NCBI GenBank assembly: GCA_030431435.1
Contig: JAUIJI010000013.1
Location: forward strand, 1 to 35,737
Direction of reading: 5' to 3'
Source of the DNA: Alphaproteobacteria bacterium
GTDB lineage: Bacteria > Pseudomonadota > Alphaproteobacteria > Sphingomonadales > Sphingomonadaceae
DNA length: 35,737 nucleotides
Made by a program: the position numbers and the translations under genes. A model generated the notes under the pieces. The model was not told the DNA's origin. It saw only the letters and a program-made list of their open reading frames with translations, and searched no databases. Position 1 is the stretch's first letter. Every line of letters begins with the position of its first letter. This document shows, one piece after another, positions 13,907-35,737 of the stretch.

Positions 13907-13930
13907 GGAATACTACCTAGCGTGCTGAAA

Positions 13931-16995: not shown

Positions 16996-17714
16996 AACAC
17001 GACCATTCCGGATTCTCCGCCGCTGCCGCCTATGGCGGGCAGGATATCGTCGCTGACCGCGTGAAACGCTTCGTGCCGATGGTGCGCAAGGCCGCCTGGC
17101 ACATCTTCGGCGCCGGGCGCGACGGGCTGGAGATCGAGGACCTGATGCAGGCCGGCTTCATCGCGCTCACCGAAGCTGCGAGAAACCACGAAGGCCCGGG
17201 TGAGGACGGCTTTGCCGCCTATGCCAAGATCCGCGTGCGCGGCGCGATGTTCGATTGTGTCCGCAAGCAAATGCCTGACAGCCGCAATGCCGTGCGCCGT
17301 CGAAGGCAAGCCGATGACGCGCGCGAGGCGCTGCGGCAACAGCTGGGCCGCGAACCCTCAGATGGGGAATTGGCCGACAAACTCGGCATTCCGCTGTCCG
17401 ACCTCGGCCAATATGCCAGCGAGGAAATACAGGTCACCTCGATCGATGCCGCCTATGACGATAGCAGCGCACAATTCGCCACCGACTTGCCTGATCCCTT
17501 CGTTGTGCTCAGCCAGTTGCAGGATAATGACAGGCTTGGCGAAGCGATGGAGGAATTGTCGGATCGGTTGAAACTCGTCTTGCAGCTCTATTTCGTCGAG
17601 GAACTGAACCTTACCGAAATCGCCGCCGTCCTGGAAGTCAGCGTGCCGCGCGTCCATCAATTGAAGACACAGGCGCTGATGAAATTGCGCGAGCTTATGG
17701 AGGAAGCTGCCTAA
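16992..17714 (+). CDS. fliA: Flagellar sigma factor FliA (sigma-28)
   Basis: A 240-residue sigma-70 family factor, the same size as E. coli FliA (239). Region 2: VKRFVPMVRKAAWHIFGAGR, IEDLMQAGFIALTEAARN, then FAAYAKIRVRGAMFDCVRKQ. Region 3: LRQQLGREPSDGELADKLGI. Region 4: LKLVLQLYFVEELNLTEIAA with the helix-turn-helix LEVSVPRVHQLKTQALMKL. It starts inside the flhA stop. Its TAA at 17712-17714 shares bases with the stop codon of the convergent secA-like gene. FliA is probably controlled by FlgM and reads filament and late genes that lie outside this window. Confidence 0.94.
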   Translation: MKHDHSGFSAAAAYGGQDIVADRVKRFVPMVRKAAWHIFGAGRDGLEIEDLMQAGFIALTEAARNHEGPGEDGFAAYAKIRVRGAMFDCVRKQMPDSRNAVRRRRQADDAREALRQQLGREPSDGELADKLGIPLSDLGQYASEEIQVTSIDAAYDDSSAQFATDLPDPFVVLSQLQDNDRLGEAMEELSDRLKLVLQLYFVEELNLTEIAAVLEVSVPRVHQLKTQALMKLRELMEEAA

Positions 17715-19738
17715 TCCGCCCCGCTGAAGGACATGCTTTCGCGCAGCTTGTCTTCGGAAAGCTCGGTCTGGCGGCGGCTTGCGGCGTGGCGGCGTTCGGC
17801 AGCAGCTTGCGCCAGCTTGCGCAGCCATTCCGCCGGGCCATCCTGCACCGGCCAATGCTTGACGGACCGCGCCAGCATGGCTGCGACACCTTTGCCGAAG
17901 TGCTTGTAAAGCTCGTCATCCAGCGCGGTGATCGCTTGCGAGGACCCCGGATCGCCTTGCCGCCCGGCGCGCCCGTATAGCTGGCGGTCCACCCGCGCAG
18001 TTTCGTGGAAGGCGGTGAGGATGACGTGCAGCCCGCCTGCTGCCTCCGCCTCGTCCGACAATTCGATATCGGTGCCGCGCCCTGCCATATTGGTGGCGAC
18101 GGTGACTGCGCCCAATTGCCCTGCCCCGGCGATAATGTCCGCCTCCTCGCCATCCTGCCGCGCGTTGAGCACGCGGTGCGCGATCCCGCGTGCCGCCAGC
18201 ACTTCGGCTACGGCTTCGGAATCGGCCACGGAGCGTGTTCCGACAAGGATCGGCCTGTCGCCTTCCTCGGCCTTCACCGTTGAAACGGCATCGGCAACCA
18301 TGCTCCATTTCTCGTCTTGTGTGCGCACCATCACATGGCCGCGATGTTCGCGTTGCGAAGGGCGGTTGGTCGGCACGGGCCGCACCCGCAGGCCGAAATC
18401 GGCCCATAGCTCGCCCGCGACTTCGCGCACGGTGCCGCTCATGCCCGAGAGCCGCCGATAGCGGCGGAAGAAGCGCTGGTAGGTGATCCGCGCCAGCGTG
18501 TTGCGCGATCCGGTGATCTCGACCTGCTCCTTCACCTCAACCATCTGGTGCAGGCCGCCTTCCCAGCTGCGGTCTGCCATGGTCCGCCCGGTGCCTTCGT
18601 CAACGATCTGCACCTTGCCATCCATCACCACATAATCGCGATCGCGCAGGAACAGGCGGGTGGCAGACAGCGCCTGGCTGGCGAGCTGCTCGCGCGCCTG
18701 GCGAATACGCCAGAGCTTTTGCGGCAAGCCCGATGCGAGCTCTGCCACGGCCCGCTTGCCGCGTTCGGACAGTTCCACCGCGCGCTCGGATTCCTTGATC
18801 GTGTAATGCCGTCCTTCCTCAAGGTGGCGCGCCAGTTCGAGAGCGGACTGGTACAGCCCGTCATCATCGGCAGGAACTTCGGCAGAGAGGATCAGCGGCG
18901 TGCGCGCTTCGTCGATGAAGATCGAATCCGCCTCGTCGACGATGGCGAAATGCAGGCCGCGCATGGTCAGCGGCGGGCGCCTGCGACCGAACATTTGCGA
19001 TACAAGCCTGCGCGCCGCACCGCGCTGCTTGCCCAGCGCCGCCTGGTCCTTGAGATAGTCGAAGGCGATTTCCTTGTTGGTGCCATAGACCACGTCTGCG
19101 CGATAGGCCGCGCGGCGCTCTTCCGGTTCCTTGCCTTCGATGATCAGCCCAGTGCTGAGGCCGAACAGGCGATAGACCGGCTCCAGCTTGGCGAGGTCAC
19201 GCTCGGCGAGGTAATCGTTCACGGTAAAAACATGCGCGGGCATCCCGGCAAGCGCCGCTGTGATCGCGGGCAGCAGCGCGGTGATCGTCTTGCCCTCGCC
19301 CGTCGCCATTTCGGCAATGCCGCCATCGACCATCACCAGCCCGCCCATCAGCTGAACCGGATAATGCCGCATGCCCAGTTCACGCCCCGTCGCTTCGCGG
19401 ATCAGGGCAAAGCATTCGTCGACCAGGTCAGGCTCAAGCCCCTGTCTGGTCAGCCGCGCGCGGATATTGCGGCAACGCACTACGAAGGCATCATGCCCCA
19501 TTTCGGCCAGTTCGGGATACCCGCTTGCGATGGCCTCCGCCCGTTCGAGCAGCGGGTTGCCACGCCGCAAGGGCGGATCGACCGCCAGCCTGCCGATCAC
19601 CTTGTCGAGCGGCCTGTCCCATTTCCAGCTCTTGCGCTGGCCCTTTTCTGCATAAGGCGCGACGACGGGTTCCTCGTCGCTGCGGATTTCGCGCCAGATT
19701 TCGCCTGCACGTTCCTTCAGGCTCTCGCGATCAAGCAT
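17711..19738 (-). CDS. SecA-like translocation ATPase, short accessory form
   Basis: A 675-residue protein starting at ATG 19738, which overlaps the M50-HlyD stop by 8 bases. SecA motifs in order: FGMRH-like GMRHYPVQLMGG (122-133), Walker A MATGEGKT (144-151), FTVNDYLAERD (171-181), VYGTNKEIAFDYL (217-229), DEAD-type VDEADSIFIDEARTPLI (267-283), IVDEGTGRTM, LSGMSGTVRE, ATNMAGRGTDIEL and RAGRQGDPGSS. It stops shortly after this last motif (ending KLRESMSFSGAD). The C-terminal helical scaffold/wing and the SEC-C zinc motif of housekeeping SecA (about 900 residues) are absent. The N-terminus is about 40 residues longer before Walker A. It ends an operon with two HlyD-type adaptors and a giant protein, so it probably energises their export. 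A housekeeping secA should exist elsewhere. Confidence 0.9.
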   Translation of the reverse strand: MLDRESLKERAGEIWREIRSDEEPVVAPYAEKGQRKSWKWDRPLDKVIGRLAVDPPLRRGNPLLERAEAIASGYPELAEMGHDAFVVRCRNIRARLTRQGLEPDLVDECFALIREATGRELGMRHYPVQLMGGLVMVDGGIAEMATGEGKTITALLPAITAALAGMPAHVFTVNDYLAERDLAKLEPVYRLFGLSTGLIIEGKEPEERRAAYRADVVYGTNKEIAFDYLKDQAALGKQRGAARRLVSQMFGRRRPPLTMRGLHFAIVDEADSIFIDEARTPLILSAEVPADDDGLYQSALELARHLEEGRHYTIKESERAVELSERGKRAVAELASGLPQKLWRIRQAREQLASQALSATRLFLRDRDYVVMDGKVQIVDEGTGRTMADRSWEGGLHQMVEVKEQVEITGSRNTLARITYQRFFRRYRRLSGMSGTVREVAGELWADFGLRVRPVPTNRPSQREHRGHVMVRTQDEKWSMVADAVSTVKAEEGDRPILVGTRSVADSEAVAEVLAARGIAHRVLNARQDGEEADIIAGAGQLGAVTVATNMAGRGTDIELSDEAEAAGGLHVILTAFHETARVDRQLYGRAGRQGDPGSSQAITALDDELYKHFGKGVAAMLARSVKHWPVQDGPAEWLRKLAQAAAERRHAASRRQTELSEDKLRESMSFSGAD

Positions 19739-21884
19739 TGAATGTCGCCAGGAACAGCTGCCGAATTCGGCGGAAGGCCTGCCAGCCAAGCGGCTCCCAA
19801 TCGAGCGCGAAACGCACGTGGACACGGGTACCGAAGGGCACGTCCTGCGCTTCCTCAGGCAAGGCGATGTCGAACAGGAACACCCGGCCCAATGCGCGGG
19901 TGCCGTTCTCGTCACGCGGATCCAGTGCGAAAATGCCGCCATTGGCTGCCCCCAGCGCCGGGCTGGGCAAATCATAGGTTCCGCCGGGGATGGCGCGGAT
20001 GATGGTGCCGTCAAAGCTCTCGCCGGGACGGTTGGCGAGGCGGAAGCGCAAATCCTGCAGATGCCCGCGCACCAGCTCGAAATCGTCTTGCGCCACGGCA
20101 ATGCGGGCTGTGTCTGCCCGGCCGGGCGTGACATAGCCGATCAGGTCACCCTTCCTGACATAGCGCCCCGGCAGGTCCTGCGCCGGGGCGGCGGCGAGCA
20201 TGAAGCGTCCTTCGGCTCCTGCGCGCATGTCAAGCTGGCCCAGCCGCTGTTGCTGGACCATCAGCCGCTCGCGCGCTTCCTGCATGGCCAGCGTGCTGAC
20301 TTCGCGCTCTACCCGGTCACCGCGCAATTCGGCATCGGCCTCCGCCTGCAATTCGCGCATGCGCCAGCTCAATTGTTCCACCTCGGCTTCGAGCAGCGGA
20401 TGAGCGGATTCCACCAACAACTGCCCGGGAACGACCTCCTCCCCCTCGCGCGTGGCGATGGCCGTGATCATCCCGTCTGACCCGGCGCGGACATGCGCTT
20501 CTTCCGGCAGCCAGACAACGCCTTGCGTGGTGGCATGGTGCGGTGCCGGCACTGCAAACAGGAGCAGCGCCAGCACCGCGACTCCGCCCATGGTCAGCTG
20601 CACCGCGCGTCGGCGGTTGCGGTGCAGTTGCGGGCTGGAGAAGACATGGGCGAAGGCCTTCCACAATGGCAAGCCAAGCCCGGACCAGATCGACCACATG
20701 GCGATCAGCACGCCGATGATGAAGAATTTCTGCGCCACCATCAGCGCGATCGACAGCATCATCACCATACGCGCGACAAAGCTGGCGGGCGCATAGAAGA
20801 GGAACCAGCACTTTTCCCCCGGCGTGGCGTGGAACGGTTTCGCGCCGTGGGTTCGGAAGACATATTTATCAACCAGATGCGCCCAGAACTTGTTCGACCG
20901 CGTGGCAAGATTGGGTATCTCCAGCACGTCCGACAGGATGTAATAGCCATCGAACTTGAGCAGCGGATTGCCGTTCACCAGCACGGTGGAAATGCCCGCC
21001 ACGACCATGGTGTTGAACGCCACGGCGCGGGCAAAGCCCGGCTCCAGCGCCAGCCATGCGAACAGCGCGAAAGCGGCAATAAACACCTCCACCAGCATGC
21101 CCGCAGCGCCGATCAGCGCGCGCTGCCACTTGCTGTGCAGCGCGCTGGCGGACGAGGCATCGACATAAGGCACCGGGAACAGCACCAGCATCATGATACC
21201 CATCTCGCGAATCTCGCGCCCGTTCGCCTTGGCGGCATAGCCATGGCCCAGCTCATGCGCGGCCTTCACCACCGGATAGACCAGCGCCATTACCAAGAGG
21301 TTCTCGGTCGACAGCACACGGTCCCACAGGTTCCCGGTCAGCTCGCCCCAGTTCGCGCCTGCCATGAAAAGTGCGGGCAGGACCACCGCCAGCCACAGCA
21401 CCAATCCCGGCCAGCCGAACAGCGGGCGCATCACAGGCATGGTGCGGGAAAGGAACTTGTCGGGATCGATCAGCGGGATGCGAAAGCTCATCGGGCTCTT
21501 CAAGTTCTGCATCCACAGCTGGCGCTTCTGCTTCTTGTGGCGCTTGAACAATTCGGATGTGTCGGGCGCGACGTCGGATGACAGCAAGTCAGATGAGTGC
21601 AGCTGGCCCAGCGCGGAGATCACGTCGTCCTGCGTCGGCGCATCCTCGCCGATGTCGTCGACCAGCTTCTCCCACAATTCGTCAACGCGGTGCGTGCCGT
21701 CTAGCCTGCCGATCAGCAGGTAGGCTCCGCGCGGGAAGCGGTGGACCTTGCCCGCCACGCCATCATCGAGGACGTACCAGACCTCGCCGCGATAGACGTG
21801 GCGGCGCACCCGCACATGGCTGCGCAAACGCGGCTTCAGATGGGCGACGTTGAACCAGCTGGCGCTCTGGAAGGGATTGGCCAT
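19731..21884 (-). CDS. PqqD-like / M50 site-2 protease / HlyD membrane protein
   Basis: A 717-residue multi-domain protein. Residues about 22-105 (RGEVWYVLDDGVAGKVHRFP, LDGTHRVDELWEKL) resemble a PqqD-type winged-helix domain. A basic linker is next, then a membrane part with roughly 6-8 helices from residue 155 to 455. It contains the metalloprotease motif AAHELGHGY (His210, Glu211, His214) and the distal LVNGNPLLKFDGYY with Asp312, as in site-2 proteases. From about 455 a periplasmic HlyD-like part follows: a lipoyl half (VRAGSDGMITAIATREGEEV), a helical hairpin and a second beta part (GRYVRKGDLIGYVTPGR). Zinc ligands appear complete, so it may cleave a substrate. It lies 11 bases after the GAF-HlyD gene. 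Confidence 0.87.
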   Translation of the reverse strand: MANPFQSASWFNVAHLKPRLRSHVRVRRHVYRGEVWYVLDDGVAGKVHRFPRGAYLLIGRLDGTHRVDELWEKLVDDIGEDAPTQDDVISALGQLHSSDLLSSDVAPDTSELFKRHKKQKRQLWMQNLKSPMSFRIPLIDPDKFLSRTMPVMRPLFGWPGLVLWLAVVLPALFMAGANWGELTGNLWDRVLSTENLLVMALVYPVVKAAHELGHGYAAKANGREIREMGIMMLVLFPVPYVDASSASALHSKWQRALIGAAGMLVEVFIAAFALFAWLALEPGFARAVAFNTMVVAGISTVLVNGNPLLKFDGYYILSDVLEIPNLATRSNKFWAHLVDKYVFRTHGAKPFHATPGEKCWFLFYAPASFVARMVMMLSIALMVAQKFFIIGVLIAMWSIWSGLGLPLWKAFAHVFSSPQLHRNRRRAVQLTMGGVAVLALLLFAVPAPHHATTQGVVWLPEEAHVRAGSDGMITAIATREGEEVVPGQLLVESAHPLLEAEVEQLSWRMRELQAEADAELRGDRVEREVSTLAMQEARERLMVQQQRLGQLDMRAGAEGRFMLAAAPAQDLPGRYVRKGDLIGYVTPGRADTARIAVAQDDFELVRGHLQDLRFRLANRPGESFDGTIIRAIPGGTYDLPSPALGAANGGIFALDPRDENGTRALGRVFLFDIALPEEAQDVPFGTRVHVRFALDWEPLGWQAFRRIRQLFLATFNA

Positions 21885-21895
21885 CGCGCGTCAGC

Positions 21896-23764
21896 TCACG
21901 GCGTCCAGCGCCACAGGAACAGGCTGAGCCATTCGCGCAAGGGCCGGGTCCAGATCCACAGATTGCTGCGGCGGTCGATATCGACCTTGGCCACGCCTTC
22001 CATGCCCGGGCGCATGATCGCTTCGGCCCCTTCGCCCAGTTCGGCCTCGACGCGGAAGGTGTTCACACCATCCTTGTTCTCGGTGACGGAGGTGAGGTTG
22101 GTGACGGTGAAGGCCACGGTGCGGCCAGCCAGCCCGGTGGGCGCGAAACGACCCTCCTGCCCCACCTGCATATAGGATATGTCGTTCTCCTCTACGTTCA
22201 GCACCACGCGGAAATCATCGAGCGGAGCGACTTCGAAGAGCACCTCGCCCTCTTCCACCGGCGAGCCGACCAGCTGGCTGACATCGCCGGACACCAGCAC
22301 GCCGGAAAGCGGCGCGGCGATGTTCACCCGGGCCAGCTTGTATTCGATCAGGTTGAGCTCGGCCTGTGCCTGCCGCAATTGCGCGCCATAGAGGTTCATC
22401 TCGGCGCGTTCGTGATTGGCCAGCGCGGCGCGATAGCGGCGATCATGTTGCTGCACTTCGCTGGCGGCGCGCGCCTGGTCGAGCAGCAGGTCCCTGTCAT
22501 CGAGGCTGGCGAGCACCTGGCCCTGTTCGACAACGTCACCCGCACGGGCATACGAGCGGGAGATGAAGCCCGAGAACGGCGCTGCGGCGGCGCGCTGCAC
22601 GCGGCCTTCCAGTGCGGCATCTGCGCCCACGCGGAATTGCGCGATGGGGATCAGCAGGATCAGCAGCAAGACCAGCGCGCCAATGCCGAGCGCCTTGGCC
22701 AGCGGGCGGCGCGGGCCGAACAGCGCCTTTGCCCCGTCCATCGCCTTGCCCCTGATCCTGCCGCTGACCAGCCGCGCCTCGCGCCGCTGCAAGGCGAAGA
22801 TCGGCGCGACCAGCGATGCGGCCATTTCGCAGAACATCAGGTCTCCCGGACCGAAGGGCTCGCCATCCTTGTCCCGCTCCACCGTCAGCACGCCCAGCGG
22901 AATGCCGCGATCGACCAGCGGGACCGAAGCGATGGTCGAGCTTCCCAGTACCGTTGCCAGCCTTGCGTGCTGGATGGTGATGGCGCCGATATCGTCTTCC
23001 TCGCCCTTGTCAGGAACGAGGATGGCGGACCGCTGGTCATGCGCCTCGTCCATCGCCGCCTCAATCGTTTCGGCGATGTCGGAGCGTTTGCGGAACCACG
23101 ATCCGTGGCTCATCGCGGCAAGGCGAATGCTGTCCTTTTTGACGAAGCCCACGGCAGCACGGTCGGCTTTCATGATGCGGCATATCTCGTTCGCCAGCGC
23201 CATGGAGGATTGCTCGATCCGGTCGTGCTCCTGCACCCCGGCGAGCAGTTCCATCGCCGCTGCCGCGCTCGCCCCGCCAAGCGCGCGCTCATCCGCCTGC
23301 GCCTGCCATACCAGCGACAGGATCCACCCCACCCCCCAATGCAGTTCGCGCAACGCCTTTTGCACCACGCCTGCGGGGGCATTTTCCAGCGCCAGCACGA
23401 TCACGCCATGCACACGCTGGTCAGACGCGACGGGATAGGCGATGCAGGTCTGGCCCTCGCTATCGGGCAGGGGCTGCACCTGCGGCTGGCCATTGGCGAG
23501 CGCGGCCTCCCCCGCCTTGCGCAAGGGATCGATATTGGTCGGGCGAGAAGGCCAGGCAGCAGCAGGGGTAAAGCGCCCTCCGCCAGCCTCGAGCAGGATC
23601 AGCCCCCCGCTTGCCCCCGGCGTGCGGGCGCATTGCAGATCGAGCCAGGCACGACAGAAATCGGCAGGTCCGCTGGCAGAAGCGAGCGCGGCCCAAAGCG
23701 CAGGCTCGTCTGCCTTAAGGCGGGACAAGTCGCCGTCATCCGCGTTGAGATGCTGTGTCGCCAT
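21896..23764 (-). CDS. GAF-GAF-TM-HlyD periplasmic adaptor protein
   Basis: A 622-residue protein. The cytoplasmic N-terminal half has two GAF-like domains, about residues 25-160 (ASGGLILLEAGGGRFTPAAAW, VHGVIVLALENAP) and 180-328 (ADRAAVGFVKKDSIRLAAMSH, ASVPLVDRGIPLGVLTVERD). A single membrane helix is at 356-376 (GIGALVLLLILLIPIAQF). A HlyD/MFP adaptor follows: lipoyl half RAAAAPFSGFISRSYARAGD, VVEQGQVLASLDDRDLLLDQ, a coiled hairpin, NIAAPLSGVLVSGDVSQLVG, then a beta-barrel part. The ligand of the GAF domains is unknown. It begins 24 bases after the giant gene, with AGGAAGGGG as ribosome binding site. It should reach across the periplasm to an outer-membrane channel that is not encoded here. 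Confidence 0.87.
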   Translation of the reverse strand: MATQHLNADDGDLSRLKADEPALWAALASASGPADFCRAWLDLQCARTPGASGGLILLEAGGGRFTPAAAWPSRPTNIDPLRKAGEAALANGQPQVQPLPDSEGQTCIAYPVASDQRVHGVIVLALENAPAGVVQKALRELHWGVGWILSLVWQAQADERALGGASAAAAMELLAGVQEHDRIEQSSMALANEICRIMKADRAAVGFVKKDSIRLAAMSHGSWFRKRSDIAETIEAAMDEAHDQRSAILVPDKGEEDDIGAITIQHARLATVLGSSTIASVPLVDRGIPLGVLTVERDKDGEPFGPGDLMFCEMAASLVAPIFALQRREARLVSGRIRGKAMDGAKALFGPRRPLAKALGIGALVLLLILLIPIAQFRVGADAALEGRVQRAAAAPFSGFISRSYARAGDVVEQGQVLASLDDRDLLLDQARAASEVQQHDRRYRAALANHERAEMNLYGAQLRQAQAELNLIEYKLARVNIAAPLSGVLVSGDVSQLVGSPVEEGEVLFEVAPLDDFRVVLNVEENDISYMQVGQEGRFAPTGLAGRTVAFTVTNLTSVTENKDGVNTFRVEAELGEGAEAIMRPGMEGVAKVDIDRRSNLWIWTRPLREWLSLFLWRWTP

Positions 23765-23788
23765 CGTCCCCTTCCTGCGATGCGAGCC

Positions 23789-23900
23789 TTACTCTGCCTT
23801 TTCCGCCTCCTCCTTGCGGCTGTTGCGGCGCGCTGCCCGTTCGACATGCGCGCGGCTCATGGCCGGCAAGGCGATGGCGAACAGGGCTAGCCCCGCATCA
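23789..23900 (-). other. C-terminal hydrophobic-plus-basic tail of the giant protein
   Basis: After an acidic segment (GDDGDDA) comes a 12-residue hydrophobic run GLALFAIALPAM, then SRAHVERAARRNSRKEEAEK. The layout of a hydrophobic stretch followed by an Arg cluster at the extreme C-terminus resembles sorting-type tails. The hydrophobic run is short for a membrane helix. No glycine-rich RTX repeats are seen nearby. Confidence 0.4.
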
Positions 23901-26900: not shown

Positions 26901-29900
26901 GGCGCATCGCCAACACTGTCGGCAGTCCAGCTGAAGGTACCTGTCGGCGAAACTGCCGCGCCTTCAGGTCCGGAGACGAGCGAGAAGGTCAGCTGGTCGA
27001 GCGTATTGTCCGGATCGCTCGCGACCAGATCGAAGCTCACGCCATCGCCCCGCGTCACGGCAAGGTTGGATACTGCCGCGAGCACCGGCCCCTGGTTGGC
27101 CACAACCGCCACGCTGATGGTGAAGCTGCGTTCTGCAAAGGCCCCGCTCGGGTCCTCGACGCGCACGGTCACCGGCACATCGCCCTCGCCTGCAGCAGTC
27201 CAGCTGAAGCTGCCTGTGGGAGAGACTGCTGCGCCGGAAGGACCGGAAACCAGCGAGAAGGTGAGTTCCGCGAGGTCATTGTCAGGATCGCTCGCCACAA
27301 GGTCGAAGGCGATCGCATCGCCTGCGGTCACGGCCAGATTGCCGACCGGACCAAGCGCCGGAGATTCGTTCGGAGCAGCCTGCACGGTGATCGTGAAGCT
27401 GGTTTCGGTGCTCAGCCCGCCGCTGTCGGTCACGCGCACGGTGACAAACTGGTCACCCGTCACATCGCCCGCCAGCCAGCTGAACTGGCCATTGGCGGAA
27501 ACCGCCGCGCCCTGCGGGCCCGATACCAGCGCATAGATGAGCGCGCCGTCGTCATCCTCGGCATCGGTGGCAGACAGCGGGACAATTACGACTTCGCCCG
27601 ATGTCACCGTGCGGTCATCCACCGAGGTGAACACTGGCGCGGTATTGTCCGGCAGGAAGGCCACGGTGATCACGAAGCTGGTCTGGGTGAAGGCACCGTC
27701 CGGATCGGTCACGCGCACGGTCACCGGCACTTGCTCGGCTTCGTCGGTGGCGGTCCAGCTGAATGTGCCGTCCGGCGAAACGGTGGCACCTGCCGGGCCG
27801 CTGACGAGGCTGAATGTCAGCTCGGCCAGATCATGATCGGGATCGATGGCGGTAAGCGTGGCGGTGACGAGGTCGCCTTCGGTAACAGACTGATTGGCGA
27901 CCGGGCCGATGGCCGGGCTCTGGTTGTCGGGCGGCGTCACGCTGATGGTGAAGCTGGTCTGCGATACCGCGCTTGACGGATCGCTGACCTGCACCGTTAC
28001 CAGCTGGTCTCCGCTGCCGGCAGCCGTATAGCTGAACTGGCCGCTGGGTGAGACGCTCGCCCCGTCCGGCCCGCTGACGAGTGAGAAGGTGAGCGTATCG
28101 AGCGCGTTGTCGACATCGGTGGCGGTCAGCGCCAGCTGCACAGGATCGCCCGCGATGACGCTGCGATCATCGACAGTGCCGATCACCGGATCGTCATTCA
28201 CCGGGTTGATGTTGATAAGGACGGTCGCGCTGGCAGTGTTGCCGCTGTCGTCGGTCACCGAATAGGTGAAGCTGTCGGTGCCGGAGAAATCGGCGTTGGG
28301 CGTGTAGGTCCAGTCACCACCCGGTACAGCAGGCGGCACCAGCGTGCCATTGGCCGGATCGCCGGTGATGGTGATGGCCAGCGGACCGCCCTCGGGATCG
28401 CTGTCATTGGCGAGGATGCTGAAGCTGGCGCTGCCATCTTCGTCCAGCGTTACGCTGTCATTATTGGCGATCGGCGGCAGGTTGACGGTGATGCTGCCGA
28501 AGGTGACGTCATCGACCGTTACAAGGCTGTCCAGCGCGCCCTGGCCAATCAGGTCGAAGGACAGCAGCGCGCCGTTGGGAGCGGAAATGCCGTCAAGCGA
28601 CATCGTCACCACCACCGGGCCATCCAGCGGATTGCCCGACAAGCCCACGCCCGGTGCGACATAGACCGTGCCATCAGCCTGCAGGTTGAGCGCAGCATCG
28701 GACAGATCGAGGCCATTGAGCGCACCAAGCAGGGATTGGCCGGTCACCGGATCGATCAGCGCAACCTCGAAGGCGTCAGGCGGCAATCCGGCTTCGTTGC
28801 CGAGGTTCGCTCCGGTGATGCGGAAGGACAGTGTTTCGGCACCATTCGGGACGACGAACCCTTGCCGCAAGGCGCTGAGATAGCGCCTGTCTTCCGCGAG
28901 CACGCCGACGCCATTGGCAACAGTGCCGCCACCAGCCGCAGTCCAGCCCGCCGCTGCCGAGAAGTCACCGTTCTGCAAGGCACCAGTGGCAGCAGAACCC
29001 GTGAAAGAGCTGGCTGGCAGGACCATAGCCGTGGGCGCATCAAGCTCGGAGATAAGGCGCCGCTGCCCGATCCCGATCTGCTCGCTCATCAAATGCGCTG
29101 CACCAATTGCCGACATGTCATAAAGGCCGAGGGCGTGGCCGAGTTCATGGGTGACAACAGTCAGCAGATCCACCCGCCCGAAGGCATCGGTGCCTGACTT
29201 GGCATTGAGCAGATGTGCGGCACCAGCGGTCGCGAACTCCTCATCGGCGGAAAGCGTCTGGTCCACGAACCAGCCAAGCCCTGCGGCATCGTCGTCGATC
29301 AGCAGGAGGCCATTGGAATAGGTCCCCAACACTCCGTCTTCGAGAGATGCGACTTCCAGCGTAACGCCATCGAATTGGCTCGCTTCGACAGAGACGAAGG
29401 TAGTGTCAAACCAGCGTTGTTTTGCCTCTGCCAGCACCGCTTCCAGGCGCTCCAGCGTCAGGCCATCGCTATTGCCCAGGGGAACAGCCGACGTCGATGC
29501 GCCATCAACCAGCCGCAGGTTTTGCCCGCCAATGGTGACGACAACCTCTTCGGATTCGTCGGAAACGGTGGACGTGCTGGAAACTTGCGCCGTGAACACA
29601 TAGGTCCCGGGTGCGAGGGGCGGTTGTCCGGGCTGCGGTATCTGCAGTTCGAAGTTTCCGGAGGTGTCGGAATAGGTAATCCCGAAGAACTCACCGTCGC
29701 GGAAAATCTGGACGACCTTCGCCTTGCCGGTCTTGCCCTGCAAGGTGACATCGTTGCCCGACACAGTTGCGGTCAAGGTCGGTGCGCCGGGCTGGTTGGA
29801 CAGCTTCGGCGGATTGACCGTGATGGTGAAGGAGATCGTGTCCTGCTCGCCACCGGTATCGGTCACGCCGATCGTAAAGGTCTTTTCTCCTATATCCCCG

Positions 29901-32900
29901 GGCTCCCCGAAGTATGAGAAGAGACCGTCGTCAGTGATGGTGCCACCACCGGAAACCACCTGGTAAGTGAGGTCAGACGGATCGTCCTCCCGGTCGAGGC
30001 CGGAGAAGAAGAAATCGATGGATTCATAGACCCTGACAGAACCGGACAGGGCGCCCCCGGAACCGGTGCCGAAGATTTCCGGCGATGCGTTGTCCGTCGT
30101 TATCGAGAAGCTGGCGGTATCCGAATCCCCGGCAGTATCGACGACCTTGACGGTAACAATATCGACGGCATCCTCTAGGCCCGGCGTAAAGATGATTGTC
30201 CCGTCTGGCAGGACTTCGGCGTTATCCGGACCGCCTACCTTCAAATAGATGAGTTCGGACGGATCGTCCTCCACGTCGGTGGCGGTGACGGCAAAGACAA
30301 TCGGATCCTGGCGGGCGATGACAGTCACATCGTCGATCGTCTCGAACTCCGGTGCTTCGTTGCCGACAGTCACCGTGAAGCTCATCCGTGCCGTTTCGCC
30401 CTCGGTATCGGTGACCACGACAGTGATCACTTCCTCGCGCTTCTCATCCCCAGCTACAAAGGTGAGCACTCCGGCGTTGCTGATCGTTGCGCCAGTCGGT
30501 GGCGAGGACAGGGAAACCGTCAGGTCTGCCTTCGCGTCTTCCTCGTCCGAATAAGTGATCGGCAGGGTCAGTGTTTCGCCGGTCTTGATGCTCTGGTCAC
30601 TGACCTGCTCGATTTCGGGCGGCTGGTTGCCGAACTTGACCAGGAATTCGGCTTCGGAAGTGCCCTTGTCGGTGTCGCTAACCTGCACCCTGATCTTCAG
30701 CTTGCCCGGCGTATCGCCCGAGGTGAAAGTGAATTCGCCTTCAGGGGTCAGCGATGTGTTGGGCGTCTCCGACAGCAACTTGTACCTGAGCTCGGAAGGC
30801 TCATCCTCGCGGTCGGTTCCCTGAAGCGTCAGATTGAGCGTGGTGTTGAGGTCGATCTTCTGGTCCGCGACCGATAGCACCGGATCCTCGTTGCCAACGA
30901 TCACGCGGAACGTCTGTTCGGCAAACTTGTCACCCGTGTCGGTCACCCGGACGGTGATCGTCTCTTCGCTCAGCTCGTTGCCTGCCTTGTAGGTGAAGAT
31001 GCCGTCTTCAGTCACTTTGGCACTGCCGGAGCCGGTAATCAGTGCATATTTGAGCTTGCTCTCCGGGTCTTCCTCATCCGAACCCTTGAGTTGCAGCGTC
31101 AGGACCTCGTTGAGGTCAAGCGACTGGTCCTCGACAAACTCGAGCACCGGCTTCTTGTTGCCGACCGTGACGGTGAACACCCCGGTGCCAATGTTGTCGC
31201 CGGAATCCCTCACCCACACGACGATGTTCACATCCTCTTCGCGCTCGTCTGCGGTGAAGGTGAAGACGCCATTCGCATCCAGGCTTGCTCGGCTGTCGGG
31301 CGCGACGAGCTCGTAGGACATCTCGCGCGGGCCGTCGCGATCGTCCTCGGCATTGAGCACGAACTGGATGGTCTCGTTCGGTTTGACCTTCTGGTCATTG
31401 ACGTTGAGCGTTGGCGGCTGGTCGCCGATGAAGACCTTGAACGTGGAGACAAAGGTGTTCTTGTCACTGTCAGTAACGAGCACCTTGATCGTTTCGTCAC
31501 GGGTCTGGTCACCGGCCTCCAGCTCGAAGTGGCGACCAACAAGGCTGACGCCTTCCACATCGGTCGTGATCAGCTCGTACTTGAGCTGGTCAGGCGTATC
31601 CTTGTCATCGATACCGACGAAGTCGATCTTGAGCGTATGGTTGAGGTCGATGAACTGATCCGGCACGTCCAGAGTGGGGCCTTCGGTACCAACGACCAGT
31701 TTGAAGTTCGCCAGCGCGGACTTGCCGCCTTCGTCGGTGACCTGAACGGTGACCGGGAATACCTTGACCTCGGATCCGGCGGTGTAGGTAAAATACCCGC
31801 CCTTGGGTCCTGACTCGACGATTTTCGCGCCTTCGGGACCAGAGACAATCTTGTATTTCAACTTGTCAGCCGGCGTTTCCTTGTCGCTGGCGATGACCTG
31901 GAAACCGCGGGTTTCGTTCAACTTGTAATTCTTGTCCGAGATGACGATCAACGGAGCTTCGTTGGTCTTGCTCGAACTGTCTTCAAGCCGGATATTATCG
32001 AGCAGGAACAGCTGGCTGATGATATCGCTGCTTTCCGGATATTTGACGGTTCCATCTGTGTAGATTGTCGGCTCGCCAACCTTTCGGTCGCCGTTGACAT
32101 GCTCGAAGGTGATGGTGACGGTCTTGCCGCGATAACGCTCCGGCACCTCCACTTCATAGGTGTTCTTGTCAAAGAAGGCAGCTAGCAGCGGCACGAAAAC
32201 GGGATCGGACTTGACCACACCGTCGTCAAAAATGACGTTCATCCCGGCCTGCGCCGAGGCCGTCCAGATCTGCGTCGCATCCCATTTGAGATACTGCAGG
32301 TTGGAGGGGATATACATCGCGTTGTGCGTGATGGAATCGAAGTTCGTGGTCGTTTCCAGCAGGCCCTTCAGCGTCTTGTTCAGGAAGCTCGACAGGCTGG
32401 CTGCAAAATCCTTCTCCGAATCCGCCACCTCGGCAGGGAAGAACGAATTGATCATCGCCTCGATCGCATCGGCGCCGCCCATCAGCAGAGCGTAGTCCGA
32501 CGTCTTGAACTTGATCAGATCCGAGAACATCTTGTCGAAAAGTTCGCCGAGTTTGCCCGCGATCTTTTCTGAGACAATTGTGCCGGACTCCGAGAAGACG
32601 CTGTTCTTCTTGACGAGACCCTCGAAGTTGAGCCCGCCAAGTGTGATGTCGGCCAGCTTGAGAACAATCCGGCGACCCAGGTTCTGGTCAAGGATGTTCT
32701 GGGCACGCTGGTTCTCGAAATACTGCTGGTATTTCGCACGACCTTCCGCATCCGTGAGTCCGCCGACAATGTCGGGATCGAGCTCCCACTTCTTCACGTC
32801 CTCAAGGAAGCTGGTCTTGATGAACTTGACGATATTGTCCGCGAGCGATTTCCAGAATTTCTTCAGCGCGGCGTCGAGGTACTTTTTCTTCAGTTCGCCA

Positions 32901-35737
32901 AGCTGCTTGGTCGCCTGCTCCTTGAGCGGGCGCAACAGGTCGGTTTCGATGACGAAGAGACCGGTCAGGTCAAGACCGGAAAGATCATAGACCTGTCCCT
33001 GGAACTCGAAGTTGAGGCGGCCAAGTTCGTAACCCTCACCTCCATGGAACGACCAGCCGGGCAGCTCATAGGACAGCGGGAAGCGACCGTGCGGCGGAAC
33101 CGGATTGCCCAGACCGATCTTGTTGGCAATCAGGTTGTAGATCGACTGGTTGGTGCCCAGTTCAAAATCGCCGTTGAAAACGGTGGCAATCTTGCCGCTA
33201 TCGACCGGGACCCGATCGCTGGAAGTCGTGTTCTGGTCGTATCCGCCACCTGCGGCAGAATAATACCAGCCCTGGTGAATGCCTTCCCATATGCCGGAAT
33301 TGGGGTTCTGCGTGCCGTCATCCAGCGCGTAATTGTACCACGGCGGTGTACCGTCTTCGAGGCTGAACGCAGCGCCCGGAATGCTGAGCGAGGCCAGCGC
33401 GGCACCTTCATCGACGATGCGGCGGAAAATCTGCTGTCCTTCGAAGGAGCTCAGGCTGAGATCGATCGTACCCGCGTACCACTGATAGACACGGTCACTG
33501 GGGCCGCCCAGCCCAAGGGTCGGCGCAACAAAGCTGGAAGCCTTGCGCAACAGCGCATTGTTGACGATCTCGAAGTCGTCGAGCACGAAGCCTGTGCGGC
33601 CGGTGAGATTGGTATTGGTGACCGGTCCGTTGGTCAATTTGCTGCTGGTCGTGATCGATTTGCCGATGGGCGTGAAGCTGTTACCTCCGTGTGTCGAAGG
33701 CACGGTCTGGTAGAACGCGTCGGCGTAGGTCACGCCGTTGAAAACCAGGACTTCGGGATCCTTCAGATTGGCATAGGATATCGGATCGATTTCAAGACCG
33801 GCGACGTCCGCCAGCTTGAGTGCGATATCCACGGCCTTGATGAACCTCTCCACCGCCAGCGCGTTCGGCGGATACAATTCGGCAATGCGCGCAACCTTGG
33901 AAATCTGCCTGATCAACTTCGCCAGGTCGAGCTGCATCTTTCCTTGCTTGCCGAGCGGATCGAGCGAGGTCTGGTGGATCCCCACGCTGCCGCCGACACC
34001 GGTAACGTAGGTTCCCAGCCGCTGGATTATCTCGGAATTGACCGCTGCGCCGCGCTCATGCCCGATGAAGTGGATCGGAGTGCCCAGGAGGTTGCCGGCA
34101 GTCAGCTTGCCGCCGGTGCCTTGCGAGCCACCCATTTCGGCATCCAGCTTGATCAGCGACGCAAAGAAAGCGTCGGCCGCAGCTTCGGCAAAGCCGGAAT
34201 CGGATATGTCGGATTCCTTGTACCAGTCCGGAATCAGGACGACGGCCTTCCCTTCATGTCCTTCCAGCGCGGCCGCGCCGACCTTCTTGGTCTCGATATC
34301 GACCCAGGTCTGGTCTTTCTTGTTGTACCAGAGGACCACGCCGCCGCCGCTGGCCTCGGCGATAAGATCTCCCATCTGGGCAAACCATTGCTTCGAGCCG
34401 TCAGCCAGCTGCTGCGAGAAGTTGGCCGAACCCGGTTCGAGGCCAAAGTTCAAACCATGCGTGATCACGGTCACACCGTTGAACGCAAATCCCTGCTCCG
34501 TGAGCGGGATCGGTGCCGTGCTGAAGGTTGCGTCTTCCTGAGCGAGGTAGTTTGCCGGGTCGGGATTGGCAGGATCTTCCGCCTCGCCTTCAAACAGGCG
34601 CACGCCCCAGTGATAGTCCTGGCCTGCTGTCAGGATCGCAGCAACGTCCTTCGCCAAAGTCAGGCTGTATTCCCCGTCGGGAATTTGCTGACCGGTCCTG
34701 ACTACCTCGAGCTGCTTCTTGTCGCCCACTGTGACGAAGCGCAGTTCGTAGGCCCCGGACTCGAGCCGTTTCGACGTGAAGATGCGGTTGGGATTGTAAT
34801 CCAGAGCGTCGCGCGGCGTTCCCGGCTGCTTCTCGGCTTCGGTGCGTTCGGGATATGCATCATCCGGGAACAGGCCGGCACCCGCGGGCAGCGCGCTGAT
34901 GAACAGCTGCGTGCGGTAATCGACTTCGTTGCGAGTGTTGGATTCGATACGCCAGCGGAAGGTCACCGTTTGCGCATTGTCGCCATGCACATCAAGTTCC
35001 GTTGTCGGGGCAACCAGTTCGAGCAGCGACAATTCCTGCAGCGTCAAGCCACGGCCATGCCGCTGGACCTCGATCGGGGTCTCGTAGATGAAACCCTCGC
35101 GGAATTCGTCACGGTCAGTGGGACGCAAATCGAGGCTGACCGAGCCGAGGCCCGAAGATCGGGGTGGGCCTGCATCCTGGCGTGCAATCGCCTCGAACCT
35201 CACGGCGTCGATCACCACTACGTTGCCGACACCGCGGTAGTTGGCGTAGAGCTTCTCGTCGCGGCCATCGAGACGCAACTCTTCCAGGAATGCCAGCGGG
35301 ATGGCAGTGGTCACACCCAGCGGCGTGCCGTTCGTCGCCTGCCGCAAGCCGGGTTCGGCCTGGGAAGCCGGATCGGTCCCGGGCGCAGCCTGCGAACCAT
35401 AATTGTATCCGCGATCGGTAGTACCATTGAGCAGCACACGCTTCTCGAACGGATCCGCGATCACCATGATCTTCGAACCCGTCTGGTGGAAGCGGTCGAT
35501 GCTTTCGTTATAGTCTGGATTATTGGTCCAGTAATAAGGCGGCAGCCCCCAGTCCGCCACGAAGATGACTGACCCGTCAAAGTTCGTCGCGATCCCCGAT
35601 GCATTTCGAACATCGAGATCAATGAGGTTCGCCTGACGCGTTTCGCGGGCGCCAAAGTAGAGCCCGCCCACCTTGAACTGGTCGATCGTCGTGCCGAGCG
35701 GCTGGTCATTGAGAATGGTTGCCACCCAGCCATGATC
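23789..35737 (-). CDS. Giant repeat-rich secreted/surface protein, 5' end outside the window
   Basis: The frame runs from the right edge to a stop at 23789: at least 3,982 codons and no start visible. The GTG at 35725 is unlikely to be the start because the frame is open before it. Order of parts: a beta-propeller-like segment (VFVADW, KIMVIADPFEKRV); an alpha/beta-hydrolase-like region with GHERG (34049-34063); a Lys-rich helical stretch (about 32700-32960); eight Ig/cadherin-like repeats (29806-31954); an Ig-like domain; a HELGHALGLYD protease-like domain; a jellyroll-like segment; a tandem-95-type repeat; ten more repeats (25457-28189); PKD-, Big- and cohesin-like domains; a dockerin-like motif; and a hydrophobic-basic tail. 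It resembles giant adhesin/LEPR-XLL-type proteins. First gene (in the window) of an operon with two HlyD-type adaptors and a SecA-like motor. Cargo role is inferred from this context. Confidence 0.88.
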   Translation of the reverse strand, partial: DHGWVATILNDQPLGTTIDQFKVGGLYFGARETRQANLIDLDVRNASGIATNFDGSVIFVADWGLPPYYWTNNPDYNESIDRFHQTGSKIMVIADPFEKRVLLNGTTDRGYNYGSQAAPGTDPASQAEPGLRQATNGTPLGVTTAIPLAFLEELRLDGRDEKLYANYRGVGNVVVIDAVRFEAIARQDAGPPRSSGLGSVSLDLRPTDRDEFREGFIYETPIEVQRHGRGLTLQELSLLELVAPTTELDVHGDNAQTVTFRWRIESNTRNEVDYRTQLFISALPAGAGLFPDDAYPERTEAEKQPGTPRDALDYNPNRIFTSKRLESGAYELRFVTVGDKKQLEVVRTGQQIPDGEYSLTLAKDVAAILTAGQDYHWGVRLFEGEAEDPANPDPANYLAQEDATFSTAPIPLTEQGFAFNGVTVITHGLNFGLEPGSANFSQQLADGSKQWFAQMGDLIAEASGGGVVLWYNKKDQTWVDIETKKVGAAALEGHEGKAVVLIPDWYKESDISDSGFAEAAADAFFASLIKLDAEMGGSQGTGGKLTAGNLLGTPIHFIGHERGAAVNSEIIQRLGTYVTGVGGSVGIHQTSLDPLGKQGKMQLDLAKLIRQISKVARIAELYPPNALAVERFIKAVDIALKLADVAGLEIDPISYANLKDPEVLVFNGVTYADAFYQTVPSTHGGNSFTPIGKSITTSSKLTNGPVTNTNLTGRTGFVLDDFEIVNNALLRKASSFVAPTLGLGGPSDRVYQWYAGTIDLSLSSFEGQQIFRRIVDEGAALASLSIPGAAFSLEDGTPPWYNYALDDGTQNPNSGIWEGIHQGWYYSAAGGGYDQNTTSSDRVPVDSGKIATVFNGDFELGTNQSIYNLIANKIGLGNPVPPHGRFPLSYELPGWSFHGGEGYELGRLNFEFQGQVYDLSGLDLTGLFVIETDLLRPLKEQATKQLGELKKKYLDAALKKFWKSLADNIVKFIKTSFLEDVKKWELDPDIVGGLTDAEGRAKYQQYFENQRAQNILDQNLGRRIVLKLADITLGGLNFEGLVKKNSVFSESGTIVSEKIAGKLGELFDKMFSDLIKFKTSDYALLMGGADAIEAMINSFFPAEVADSEKDFAASLSSFLNKTLKGLLETTTNFDSITHNAMYIPSNLQYLKWDATQIWTASAQAGMNVIFDDGVVKSDPVFVPLLAAFFDKNTYEVEVPERYRGKTVTITFEHVNGDRKVGEPTIYTDGTVKYPESSDIISQLFLLDNIRLEDSSSKTNEAPLIVISDKNYKLNETRGFQVIASDKETPADKLKYKIVSGPEGAKIVESGPKGGYFTYTAGSEVKVFPVTVQVTDEGGKSALANFKLVVGTEGPTLDVPDQFIDLNHTLKIDFVGIDDKDTPDQLKYELITTDVEGVSLVGRHFELEAGDQTRDETIKVLVTDSDKNTFVSTFKVFIGDQPPTLNVNDQKVKPNETIQFVLNAEDDRDGPREMSYELVAPDSRASLDANGVFTFTADEREEDVNIVVWVRDSGDNIGTGVFTVTVGNKKPVLEFVEDQSLDLNEVLTLQLKGSDEEDPESKLKYALITGSGSAKVTEDGIFTYKAGNELSEETITVRVTDTGDKFAEQTFRVIVGNEDPVLSVADQKIDLNTTLNLTLQGTDREDEPSELRYKLLSETPNTSLTPEGEFTFTSGDTPGKLKIRVQVSDTDKGTSEAEFLVKFGNQPPEIEQVSDQSIKTGETLTLPITYSDEEDAKADLTVSLSSPPTGATISNAGVLTFVAGDEKREEVITVVVTDTEGETARMSFTVTVGNEAPEFETIDDVTVIARQDPIVFAVTATDVEDDPSELIYLKVGGPDNAEVLPDGTIIFTPGLEDAVDIVTVKVVDTAGDSDTASFSITTDNASPEIFGTGSGGALSGSVRVYESIDFFFSGLDREDDPSDLTYQVVSGGGTITDDGLFSYFGEPGDIGEKTFTIGVTDTGGEQDTISFTITVNPPKLSNQPGAPTLTATVSGNDVTLQGKTGKAKVVQIFRDGEFFGITYSDTSGNFELQIPQPGQPPLAPGTYVFTAQVSSTSTVSDESEEVVVTIGGQNLRLVDGASTSAVPLGNSDGLTLERLEAVLAEAKQRWFDTTFVSVEASQFDGVTLEVASLEDGVLGTYSNGLLLIDDDAAGLGWFVDQTLSADEEFATAGAAHLLNAKSGTDAFGRVDLLTVVTHELGHALGLYDMSAIGAAHLMSEQIGIGQRRLISELDAPTAMVLPASSFTGSAATGALQNGDFSAAAGWTAAGGGTVANGVGVLAEDRRYLSALRQGFVVPNGAETLSFRITGANLGNEAGLPPDAFEVALIDPVTGQSLLGALNGLDLSDAALNLQADGTVYVAPGVGLSGNPLDGPVVVTMSLDGISAPNGALLSFDLIGQGALDSLVTVDDVTFGSITVNLPPIANNDSVTLDEDGSASFSILANDSDPEGGPLAITITGDPANGTLVPPAVPGGDWTYTPNADFSGTDSFTYSVTDDSGNTASATVLININPVNDDPVIGTVDDRSVIAGDPVQLALTATDVDNALDTLTFSLVSGPDGASVSPSGQFSYTAAGSGDQLVTVQVSDPSSAVSQTSFTISVTPPDNQSPAIGPVANQSVTEGDLVTATLTAIDPDHDLAELTFSLVSGPAGATVSPDGTFSWTATDEAEQVPVTVRVTDPDGAFTQTSFVITVAFLPDNTAPVFTSVDDRTVTSGEVVIVPLSATDAEDDDGALIYALVSGPQGAAVSANGQFSWLAGDVTGDQFVTVRVTDSGGLSTETSFTITVQAAPNESPALGPVGNLAVTAGDAIAFDLVASDPDNDLAELTFSLVSGPSGAAVSPTGSFSWTAAGEGDVPVTVRVEDPSGAFAERSFTISVAVVANQGPVLAAVSNLAVTRGDGVSFDLVASDPDNTLDQLTFSLVSGPEGAAVSPTGTFSWTADSVGDAPVTVRVTDPDGAFAERSFTISVAAVPNQPPVLAPVANLSVTEGDAIAFDLSATDPDHDLAELTFALVSGPAGAEVSPTGSFSWTAAGLGDEPVTVRVTDPAGGFAERSFTISVAAVPNLPPAFDPIANLAVTEGDAVSFDLVASDPDHAVGELTYSLVSGPAGAAVSPTGAFTWTAAGDGDEEVTVRVTDPAGAFVDATFTITVSPVANVGPVLAAIADRNVTIGDAILFDLVASDADNTPAELTFSLVSGPAGAAVSPTGTFSWNADTLGDATVTVRVEDPSGAFSTRSFTIAVAELPNESPALAPIANRAVTQGDALAIQLEASDPDNELAELTYSIVSGPDGAEIDANGIFRWTAAGLGDRVFTVRVSDPDGASATRSFTVAVAAIPNVAPVIAPVANIAINEGETVSLALAASDADGPVSALEWKLVSGPSGASLTPQGQLSWYAADGDGMASFTVQVADGEGGRDLAQFTVNVADVAPALTLTGDAEGGAGLVYDLGLGVTDPGQDTPQQWLIDWGDGTTSSVLPGDASSASHEYEIAGDFTITASLINEDGTFAADPFNVSIAPAPLLQVTGTEFSEGALHVTFSEKLDGAMLAAGAVTLVGELTGPVSTTLGIDVQYGTLVIERADGLDLQYDSYQLVLSDTAFVSDRGSVLDGDADGVQGADFTATLVNSLALAGNAELPDFMRAPGESIDVPREDQAGLQVRFTSDGGVKTMVFTVEFDPALMDLDGVLPGTDLPEGASLDWQVVDAGGGKQLVRITIVSDEPIPAGARNIVSLDASVPETAPYGSSETLFVNVEMINAALPADTQEDEALQVVGIFGDADGDELLTNMDLWWITRLAIGLDQEFGAWTDIPPELVANIVDHRKFANPLLPKIDPMEIEQPGRYISSAAPMPDMGEITFGLADAIAKWAGMIWATETPVVKQQLTPDVGQDTQNDPQSGEAAPIEGEAPAIQQVPGDAAATSQQPASFDKQALASLLAGDPGTLEPAGDDGDDAGLALFAIALPAMSRAHVERAARRNSRKEEAEKAE
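24330..24865 (-). other. Cohesin-like domain followed by a dockerin-like motif
   Basis: A beta-rich stretch with LQVRFTSDGGVKTMVFTVEF and DPALMDLDGVLPG resembles cohesin-type modules. Directly after it comes GIFGDADGDELLTNMDLWWI followed by TRLAIGLD, matching one calcium loop of a dockerin type I repeat (D-x-D-x-D-G-x-x-x-x-x-D pattern). Only one of the two usual dockerin half-repeats is clear. Confidence 0.5.
25457..28189 (-). repeat. Second array: ten highly similar repeats, 273-base period
   Basis: Ten units span 2,733 bases (911 residues, average 91). The repeated core is L-T-F-S-L-V-S-G-P-x-G-A-x-V-S-P-T-G-x-F-S-W-T-A followed by VTVRV-DP-GAF--RSFTISVA. Units 4-8 are most alike, pointing to recent duplication. 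The repeats are visible in the DNA as recurring blocks (for example around 26400, 26680, 26950 and 27220) and are likely to recombine or collapse in assemblies. Confidence 0.85.
28195..28490 (-). other. Tandem-95/cadherin-like domain between the protease-like region and the second array
   Basis: PPIANNDSVTLDEDGSASFS, then ILANDSDPEGGPLAI and DWTYTPNADFSGTDSFTY with VTDDSGNTASATVLI. This is the well-known tandem-95 or VCBS-type Ig repeat of large bacterial adhesins, present here once. Confidence 0.75.
29030..29510 (-). other. Metalloprotease-like domain with HELGHALGLYD inside the giant protein
   Basis: GRVDLLTVVTHELGHALGLY shows the metzincin-type zinc motif HExxHxxGxx(H/D) at 29117-29149, ending in Asp. 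Upstream are ASLEDGVLGTYSNG and LLIDDDAAGLGWFVDQTLSA, which I associate with a domain found in giant repeat proteins. A Met-turn-like DMSAIGAAHLMSEQ follows. The zinc ligands are complete if Asp is the third ligand; activity is not shown. Confidence 0.65.
29806..31954 (-). repeat. First array: eight Ig/cadherin-like repeats of about 90 residues
   Basis: Eight units, each starting with a P-x-(L/F/I) strand (for example PTLDVPDQFIDLN, PVLSVADQKIDLN, PPEIEQVSDQSIK). Each has a D-x-E-D-x-x-x-x-L-x-Y segment, a G-x-F-T-F strand and a closing V-x-V-x-D-(T/S)-x-(G/K) plus F-x-V-x-V-G-N. The units differ substantially from each other. D-E-D clusters at the domain junctions suggest calcium binding, as in cadherins. 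Confidence 0.8.
33990..34500 (-). other. Alpha/beta-hydrolase-like region with Glu at the nucleophile site
   Basis: Within the giant protein, VTVITHGLNFG begins the region and PIHFIGHERGAAVNSEIIQRL ends its visible core. In hydrolase-fold esterases the elbow is G-H-S-x-G; here the bases at 34055-34057 encode Glu in place of Ser. The region may be a non-catalytic relic or a binding domain. Boundaries are approximate. Confidence 0.5.

Follow-up and report, generated by a model that had tools for sequence, protein, structure and literature searches.

Outside the LapA-type route, the export of proteins of 5,000 to 15,000 residues by Gram-negative bacteria is an open question. It bears on a four-gene locus of an Alphaproteobacteria bacterium (Sphingomonadaceae; assembly GCA_030431435.1, contig JAUIJI010000013.1), in which a giant repeat protein is encoded beside a SecA-like ATPase and two HlyD-type adaptors, one fused to a GAF region (GAF-HlyD) and the other to an M50 metalloprotease (M50-HlyD). 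The DNA analyzed, hereafter the window, is this entire contig (C135; 35,737 nt).

Organization of the Locus

All four genes lie on the minus strand, in the order giant, GAF-HlyD, M50-HlyD and SecA-like. Open reading frames, Pfam and NCBIfam place them where the original prediction, made from the sequence alone, had put them and with the domains it had described (Table 1). The spacing it had given, of 24 bases, 11 bases and then an 8-base overlap, was recovered when the reading frames were rechecked. The longest open reading frame for the SecA-like gene begins at 20134, within the M50 gene.

Table 1. Position of the module genes and of the main protein features in the window.
Feature	Position	Strand	Details
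Giant Ig/cadherin-repeat protein, C-terminal part	35737-23789	-	3982 codons, ORF open at contig edge
GAF-HlyD: GAF region, one hydrophobic segment (by eye), HlyD adaptor	23764-21896	-	622 aa; Pfam
M50-HlyD: fusion of PqqD-like region, Peptidase_M50 and HlyD adaptor	21884-19731	-	717 aa; Pfam
PqqD-like N-terminal domain of M50-HlyD, residues 40-101	21582..21767	-	Pfam match below cut-off; predicted model
HELGH metalloprotease motif of M50-HlyD, residues 210-214	21243..21257	-	H210, E211 and H214 invariant in alignment
SecA-like ATPase, motor domains and preprotein clamp	19738-17711	-	675 aa from ATG at 19738

The reading frame of the giant extends past the contig end, hence its start lies outside the window. 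The C-terminal part in the window matches the Pfam families Big_9, He_PIG, Cadherin_4/5 and cohesin-like repeats, and no RTX family was found in it at E ≤ 0.001. It ends in a short hydrophobic stretch followed by a basic tail (window 23789-23900), as do the giants of loci L033 and L035 (three of three, by eye), and this is possibly a retention or sorting end in this genus.

The remainder of the window (1-17714) is a flagellar cluster comprising FlhA, a FliA-type sigma factor, rod, ring and hook genes, with two separate MotA-like genes (2605-3468, minus strand; 11411-12202, plus strand). The SecA-like and flagellar sigma genes are convergent and overlap by 4 bases (17711-17714). A flagellar role and a chance neighborhood were both rejected, since the same gene order is found in the named loci described below and in two relatives of the same genus (G011 and G013), and a search of the 67-69 kb around the loci of these relatives for seven of the window's flagellar proteins detected none. 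As flagellar genes are missing from these stretches, the module may have come to lie next to the flagellar genes by a later insertion or rearrangement.

The Complete Locus in Relatives

In G011 and G013 the four-gene order is repeated with partner proteins 70-77% identical to those of the window, the GAF-HlyD orthologues being at 70%, and among the 24 other genomes of the genus that were searched only these two encode a close GAF-HlyD relative. Both hold a whole giant of 12,886 residues inside one such locus, with the motif LEPRLLLNA close to its start and with kinase, ECF sigma and TolC-family genes preceding it. Aligned with the G013 giant, the window giant covers mainly residues 9519-12882, about the last quarter of that protein. 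In the genome of the window itself, an 804-residue open frame carrying LEPRLLLNA runs off the end of another contig, C42. Behind this giant N-terminus lie kinase, ECF sigma and OEP/TolC genes and a third HlyD gene, and the HlyD protein is 71% identical to that encoded near the giant in G011 and G013. The N-terminus exceeds the cut-off of the LEPR-XLL domain (NF012209) both in this genome (G000:C42:2192-2257, E 4.9e-6) and in G013 (22.1 bits for a cut-off of 17). The simplest reading, drawn from homology, is that C42 and C135 would be one locus split by the assembly. The ECF sigma and Ser/Thr kinase genes lie between TolC and the giant (L132, 5065-5766 and 2663-5095, respectively), and their place beside the giant suggests a dedicated regulation.

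Conservation of the Module

A scan of named genomes retrieved at least 551 relatives, of which the best 80 were taken; their titles span Alpha-, Beta-, Gamma- and Deltaproteobacteria and relatives, with one genome each of Nitrospiraceae, Rokubacteria and Omnitrophota. Within these best 80, GAF-HlyD lies upstream of M50-HlyD in all 77 loci with enough flank, and 74 of 76 have a SecA-like gene no more than 1.1 kb downstream of M50-HlyD, the matches in L183, L184 and L230 being weak. The two loci without it are L178 and L180, the latter belonging to Omnitrophota, where the module was found in 1 of 14 genomes. In 51 of 76 loci, a start codon falls precisely where the M50 and SecA-like genes would overlap by 8 bases (38 ATG, 13 GTG). 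The original prediction had called for homologues to be inspected for adjacency, and the M50-HlyD, GAF-HlyD and SecA-like genes do co-occur elsewhere, in conserved order, in the named loci and in G011 and G013. A giant-like open frame is present within 41 of 73 named loci and absent from 32, counts that are approximate because giants were called in scripts by amino-acid composition. In the phylum, M50-HlyD matches were obtained in 87 of 299 genomes (E ≤ 1e-6), the weakest few of which may be HlyD-only.

Some loci (L082, L083, L085, L086, L087, L089, and L090) encode another large protein after the SecA-like gene. Its N-terminus is FHA-like, of the two-partner secretion type, and in most cases it has a signal-peptide-like start.

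The Protease and Adaptor Proteins

GAF-HlyD matches the Pfam families GAF (53.3 bits), HlyD_D23 (60.1 bits) and HlyD_3. The Peptidase_M50 match of M50-HlyD reaches 29.5 bits for a cut-off of 27.2, and the HExxH motif and the second, downstream Asp that define an M50 or site-2 protease are present and invariant in 60 of 60 aligned homologues. The designation of its N-terminal region as PqqD-like proved correct at the family level: PF05402 is matched at E ≤ 1 by 55 of 60 homologues (best 1.7e-7), the window protein itself scoring 15.6 bits, under the Pfam cut-off of 23.4. In the AlphaFold2 model (mean pLDDT 87.8, pTM 0.69), this region is predicted to form three strands and then helices, and the predicted adaptor arm resembles MexA/MacA/AcrA by Foldseek. 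The best 50 listed Foldseek matches were all adaptor proteins, without the PqqD fold among them, and a search of the PDB with the sequence gave nothing useful.

The best-scoring NCBIfam model for M50-HlyD is the daptide HExxH leader protease (NF041824), which covers the N-terminal region and the M50 domain (residues 18-393, E 2.6e-40). Going by its name, this family acts as a leader protease; a literature search for it returned no paper. M50-HlyD differs from it by a score of 138.7 bits, below the cut-off of 300, by the fused HlyD adaptor and by a putative substrate of thousands of residues.

LEPR-XLL Giants as Candidate Substrate

The LEPR-XLL model matches 50 of the 299 genomes of the phylum, and 48 of these 50 have an M50-HlyD match, compared to 39 of the 249 genomes without LEPR-XLL (Fisher 7e-29). 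Counted by family, taking 70 families, M50-HlyD is present in 22 of 22 LEPR families and in 9 of the 48 others. Strong SecA-like copies can be told apart from canonical SecA by a profile match that extends to the profile end. They are present in at least 34 of the 299 genomes, and all 34 listed have M50-HlyD and 31 have LEPR-XLL; this tally covers the strong matches among those listed, with at most four candidates scored per genome, and divergent copies such as that of L100 fall outside it. Similarly, LEPR-XLL was found in 43 of 48 named module genomes searched (from 50 of the 80 loci), and the open frames that contain it are mostly thousands of codons long.

Exceptions exist in both directions. 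Five of the 48 module genomes and three of the 34 listed SecA-like genomes have no LEPR-XLL call, and one of the five, G357, encodes in its locus L190 a giant with the variant LEARLLFSA. Conversely, G250 and G317 have a LEPR-XLL call and only ordinary HlyD relatives, without M50-HlyD. The 39 genomes with M50-HlyD and no LEPR-XLL call may in part be explained by the low scores of motifs such as LEQR, which belong to the second class of loci described below. Among 148 genomes from the phylum to which a Desulfomicrobium belongs, the association persists in weaker form: the M50-HlyD profile is matched in 5 of 8 genomes with LEPR-XLL and in 9 of 140 others (p 2e-4), and the remaining three of the eight (G479, G532, and G487, from Desulfobacterota) have a LEPR call without such a match. 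In 14 control genomes, M50 proteins were present and LEPR-XLL was not found, which fits the expectation that ordinary M50 proteases are irrelevant to the association.

The machine's substrate is thus probably the giants with an N-terminal LEPR-XLL motif, a proposal that is new relative to Kamneva et al. (2015). No paper linking LEPR-XLL with this locus was retrieved by our literature search, and the literature found mentions the domain in passing, with no partner stated in the portions available.

Two Classes of Locus with Matched Motifs

Loci were assigned by M50 score to class A (full-length) or class B (more distant), with some matches in between, and the neighborhoods of a subset of matches, 43 of class A and 17 of class B, were examined. 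A SecA-like gene or piece adjoins the M50 gene in 40 of the 43 class A loci and in none of the 17 class B loci. A SecA-type motor hence does not belong to all such loci. The class A loci without a SecA-like gene are L092 and L128, and L091 stops at the M50 gene. L127-L129 were retrieved together with the controls and moved to class A later; among them, L129 (G203:C30, 208 bits) was so counted after, and because, its SecA-like neighbor had been seen. Distant M50 proteins with a SecA-like neighbor (G203:C30, G101:C30, and G074:C32) indicate that the M50 score splits the classes uncleanly.

The class B loci listed gene by gene (L110, L111, L118, L121, and L122) contain M50-HlyD, a giant and a GAF-HlyD-like adaptor of reduced length, together with a small HlyD gene in four of the five and a TolC-like lipoprotein gene in view in three. 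Pfam recognized GAF in two of three class B adaptors scanned and DUF4347 after the motif in the one class B giant scanned; no PqqD match was obtained in five class B M50 proteins scanned.

The motif itself differs between classes, being mostly LE[PED]R.LL[SNA][AG][DE] in class A and mostly LE.R..xD[GA]A in class B. A D occupies residue 8 in 1 of 59 sequences from class A and in 29 of 31 from class B. These counts include related genomes, which are not independent of one another, and contain three genes twice (L121/L280 in class B; L208/L254 and L217/L267, by position, in class A). Initially the criterion was F-D at positions 7-8, in agreement with the first 11 sequences of class B, and D at position 8 was chosen after the later 20 had been seen, of which 18 have it; these 20 were found by the LEPR model in genomes without a strong SecA-like copy.

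That LEPR-XLL is tied mainly to SecA was rejected, because SecA-less loci also carry LEPR-type giants, and the two SecA-less class A loci, L092 (G224) and L128 (G050), have LLSA-type motifs. The motif therefore follows the M50 class rather than SecA, which suggests that the leader is read by the M50 side.

A SecA-Like Motor and a Candidate Leader

The SecA-like protein matches SecA_DEAD, SecA P-loop and SecA_PP_bind far over cut-off, the P-loop match being the last one, and no Pfam match to SecA_SW was obtained. By phmmer, it aligns only to residues 22-606 of Bacillus subtilis SecA, beyond which lie the helical wing and the two-helix finger. Judging from these alignments, it keeps the motor and the clamp and ends before both of these elements, which in canonical SecA engage SecY. 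Among 72 homologues with a complete 3' end, 71 stop within 30 residues of the end of the profile match and the other at 34; this common end point led us to reject both a sequencing error and an artifact of having chosen open frames of 640-690 residues for the alignment. A second SecA-like copy, at G046:C1:2799526-2801391, has an internal stop codon.

Like the accessory SecA2 of Gram-positive bacteria, whose substrates are large repeat proteins, the protein described here is a second SecA paralogue and seems to be devoted to substrates of that kind. It scores far under the cut-offs of four NCBIfam SecA2 models (520.6/1085, 462.1/930, 417.8/725, and 385.5/1100 bits), lacks wing and finger, and has TolC and HlyD partners.

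For the leaders, 39 places were examined and 33 gave a readable match, with guessed start codons; L249, L252, L256, L258, L259, and L262 were dropped without one, and L271 was a filler that was not used. Net charge has a median of +6 (range -5 to +13). Of the 33 leaders, 30 have E at position -2, and S, A and D follow LL in 30, 28, and 29, respectively. The search pattern did not require these residues, though the model used to find the places covers them. In all 33, no window of 12 residues reaches a hydropathy of 2.0, the highest leaders being at 1.71. Six FHA- or autotransporter-type proteins of the same loci, taken as controls, range from 1.68 to 3.59; three reach 2.0 and the other three, at 1.7-1.8, are near the highest leaders. 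Judged by charge and low hydropathy, the leader thus appears unlike a typical Sec signal peptide, with an overlap at the low end of the controls.

These data bear on an export in two steps, in which the giant would cross the inner membrane via SecYEG, the SecA-like protein acting as a specialized SecA2, and M50-HlyD, GAF-HlyD and TolC would do the processing and the outer-membrane passage. The SecA2 systems of Gram-positives do use SecY, the nucleotide-binding residues are invariant in 40 aligned SecA-like homologues, and the predicted model (mean pLDDT 88.6, pTM 0.88) best fits the SecA of SecA-SecY complexes (TM 0.80-0.81). Nevertheless, a motor without helical wing and two-helix finger and leaders without a strongly hydrophobic window argue against such a path, with the reservation that half of the controls come close to the highest leaders, and we regard it as unlikely.

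Is an ABC Exporter Involved?

The original statement that a SecA-type ATPase is present instead of an ABC ATPase was upheld, as Pfam found no ABC protein among the 24 window open frames scanned. A complete HlyB/TolC system near the giant had been put forward as a competing explanation: HlyD and TolC genes are present there, no ABC gene is among the five genes read on C42, and no ABC exporter was detected among the four C42 genes scanned with Pfam. The locus shares with type I secretion (HlyB/HlyD/TolC; LapBCE) the HlyD adaptors, TolC and a giant, repeat-rich, adhesin-like substrate. It differs in having a SecA-like ATPase and an M50 protein instead of an ABC exporter, and a candidate signal that is N-terminal.

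The M50 protein might only process or retain the giant, with export left to a conventional ABC, HlyD and TolC exporter encoded elsewhere, as LapA-like giant adhesins use ABC exporters. An ABC-type ATPase pattern does occur within 20 kb in 6 of the 17 class B loci (L110-L126). The ABC-signature pattern is nevertheless absent from 42 of 42 class A loci and from 78 of 80 named loci (it was found in two, a third match falling inside a giant), no RTX family was found in the part of the giant in the window, and the HlyD and TolC genes beside the giant are unaccompanied by an ABC gene among those read, which makes this arrangement quite improbable. We give very little credence to a regulated-intramembrane-proteolysis or efflux module that merely travels with giant genes as island cargo, for although GAF and S2P domains are common in signaling and giant-like frames lie in only part of the named loci, LEPR-XLL is associated with M50-HlyD at genome level and the motif type tracks the M50 class.

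Relation to Earlier Work

Kamneva, Poudel and Ward (2015; PMC4452313) described a secondary SecA_DEAD protein that lacks all or part of the wing and scaffold and is encoded in a conserved locus together with M50, HlyD and GAF proteins; they report this locus in Methylobacterium extorquens AM1. As far as the main text goes, they proposed a type I-like system with SecA as the ATPase and M50 as the membrane part, called the broader role of the locus completely unknown and named no substrate; a search of this main text retrieved neither giant, cadherin, LEPR nor "large protein." The present locus has the same SecA_DEAD protein without wing and scaffold, adjacent M50-HlyD and GAF-HlyD genes, and HlyD and OEP genes on C42, the contig link being inferred. 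Common to both descriptions, in the main text of that paper, are the three core proteins, an extra HlyD, sometimes an OEP, the absence of an ABC gene, a SecA without SecA_SW and the type I-like role that is proposed, whereas the substrate link, the leader, the SecA-less loci and the co-variation of the motif are added here. The gene set has therefore been known since 2015, and the assignment of a substrate whose leader co-varies with its presumed reader is new. The distinct route of export or processing that was originally predicted must be judged likewise: a shared function is backed by the conserved order and by the co-occurrence with LEPR-XLL, but the hypothesis was already in print (Kamneva et al., 2015).

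A Proposed Mechanism

The gene content and order, the intact active-site residues, the loss of SecA domains, the co-occurrence with LEPR-XLL and the distribution of motif types by M50 class were obtained here, and on them we consider it fairly probable that the locus is part of a dedicated exporter and processor of one giant surface protein, with M50-HlyD capturing and clipping it and the SecA-like protein feeding it. Recognition, cleavage, direction of transport, identity of the pore, topology and the role of GAF are conjectural in what follows. The giant would carry a leader, basic in most cases and with the LEPR-XLL motif at its end, to be captured by M50-HlyD, perhaps via its PqqD-like end. 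This capture is the weakest step, given the lack of a PqqD match in the five class B M50 proteins. The SecA-like motor, with its ATPase and clamp and without the parts for SecYEG, would feed the unfolded chain to an inner-membrane assembly built on the membrane domain of M50-HlyD, and the M50 site would clip the leader near LLSA/D. In the periplasm, the HlyD arms of both adaptors may form a tube to the TolC encoded upstream, and the GAF domain may gate the machine by a cytoplasmic signal. Our confidence is slightly lowered by the M50 classes being less cleanly divided and by the ABC pattern near 6 of 17 class B loci.

A broader version can be offered only tentatively, as a possibility that we still find somewhat doubtful. 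It holds that this would be a leader-directed secretion distinct from Sec, Tat and ABC type I, in which an adaptor-fused intramembrane protease reads and clips the LEPR-XLL leader and is itself the core of the inner-membrane channel. It would be driven by a SecA motor without SecYEG in one class and by something else in the sister class, protease and leader having co-evolved into LLSA/D and xxDGA types.

Significance

This is a conserved and widespread locus for which no proposal of a substrate was found in the literature since 2015, and the link to LEPR-XLL names a likely one. If this is true, mutations can be aimed at the leader and a deletion at the protease, and a SecA without its SecY-engaging parts would become testable.
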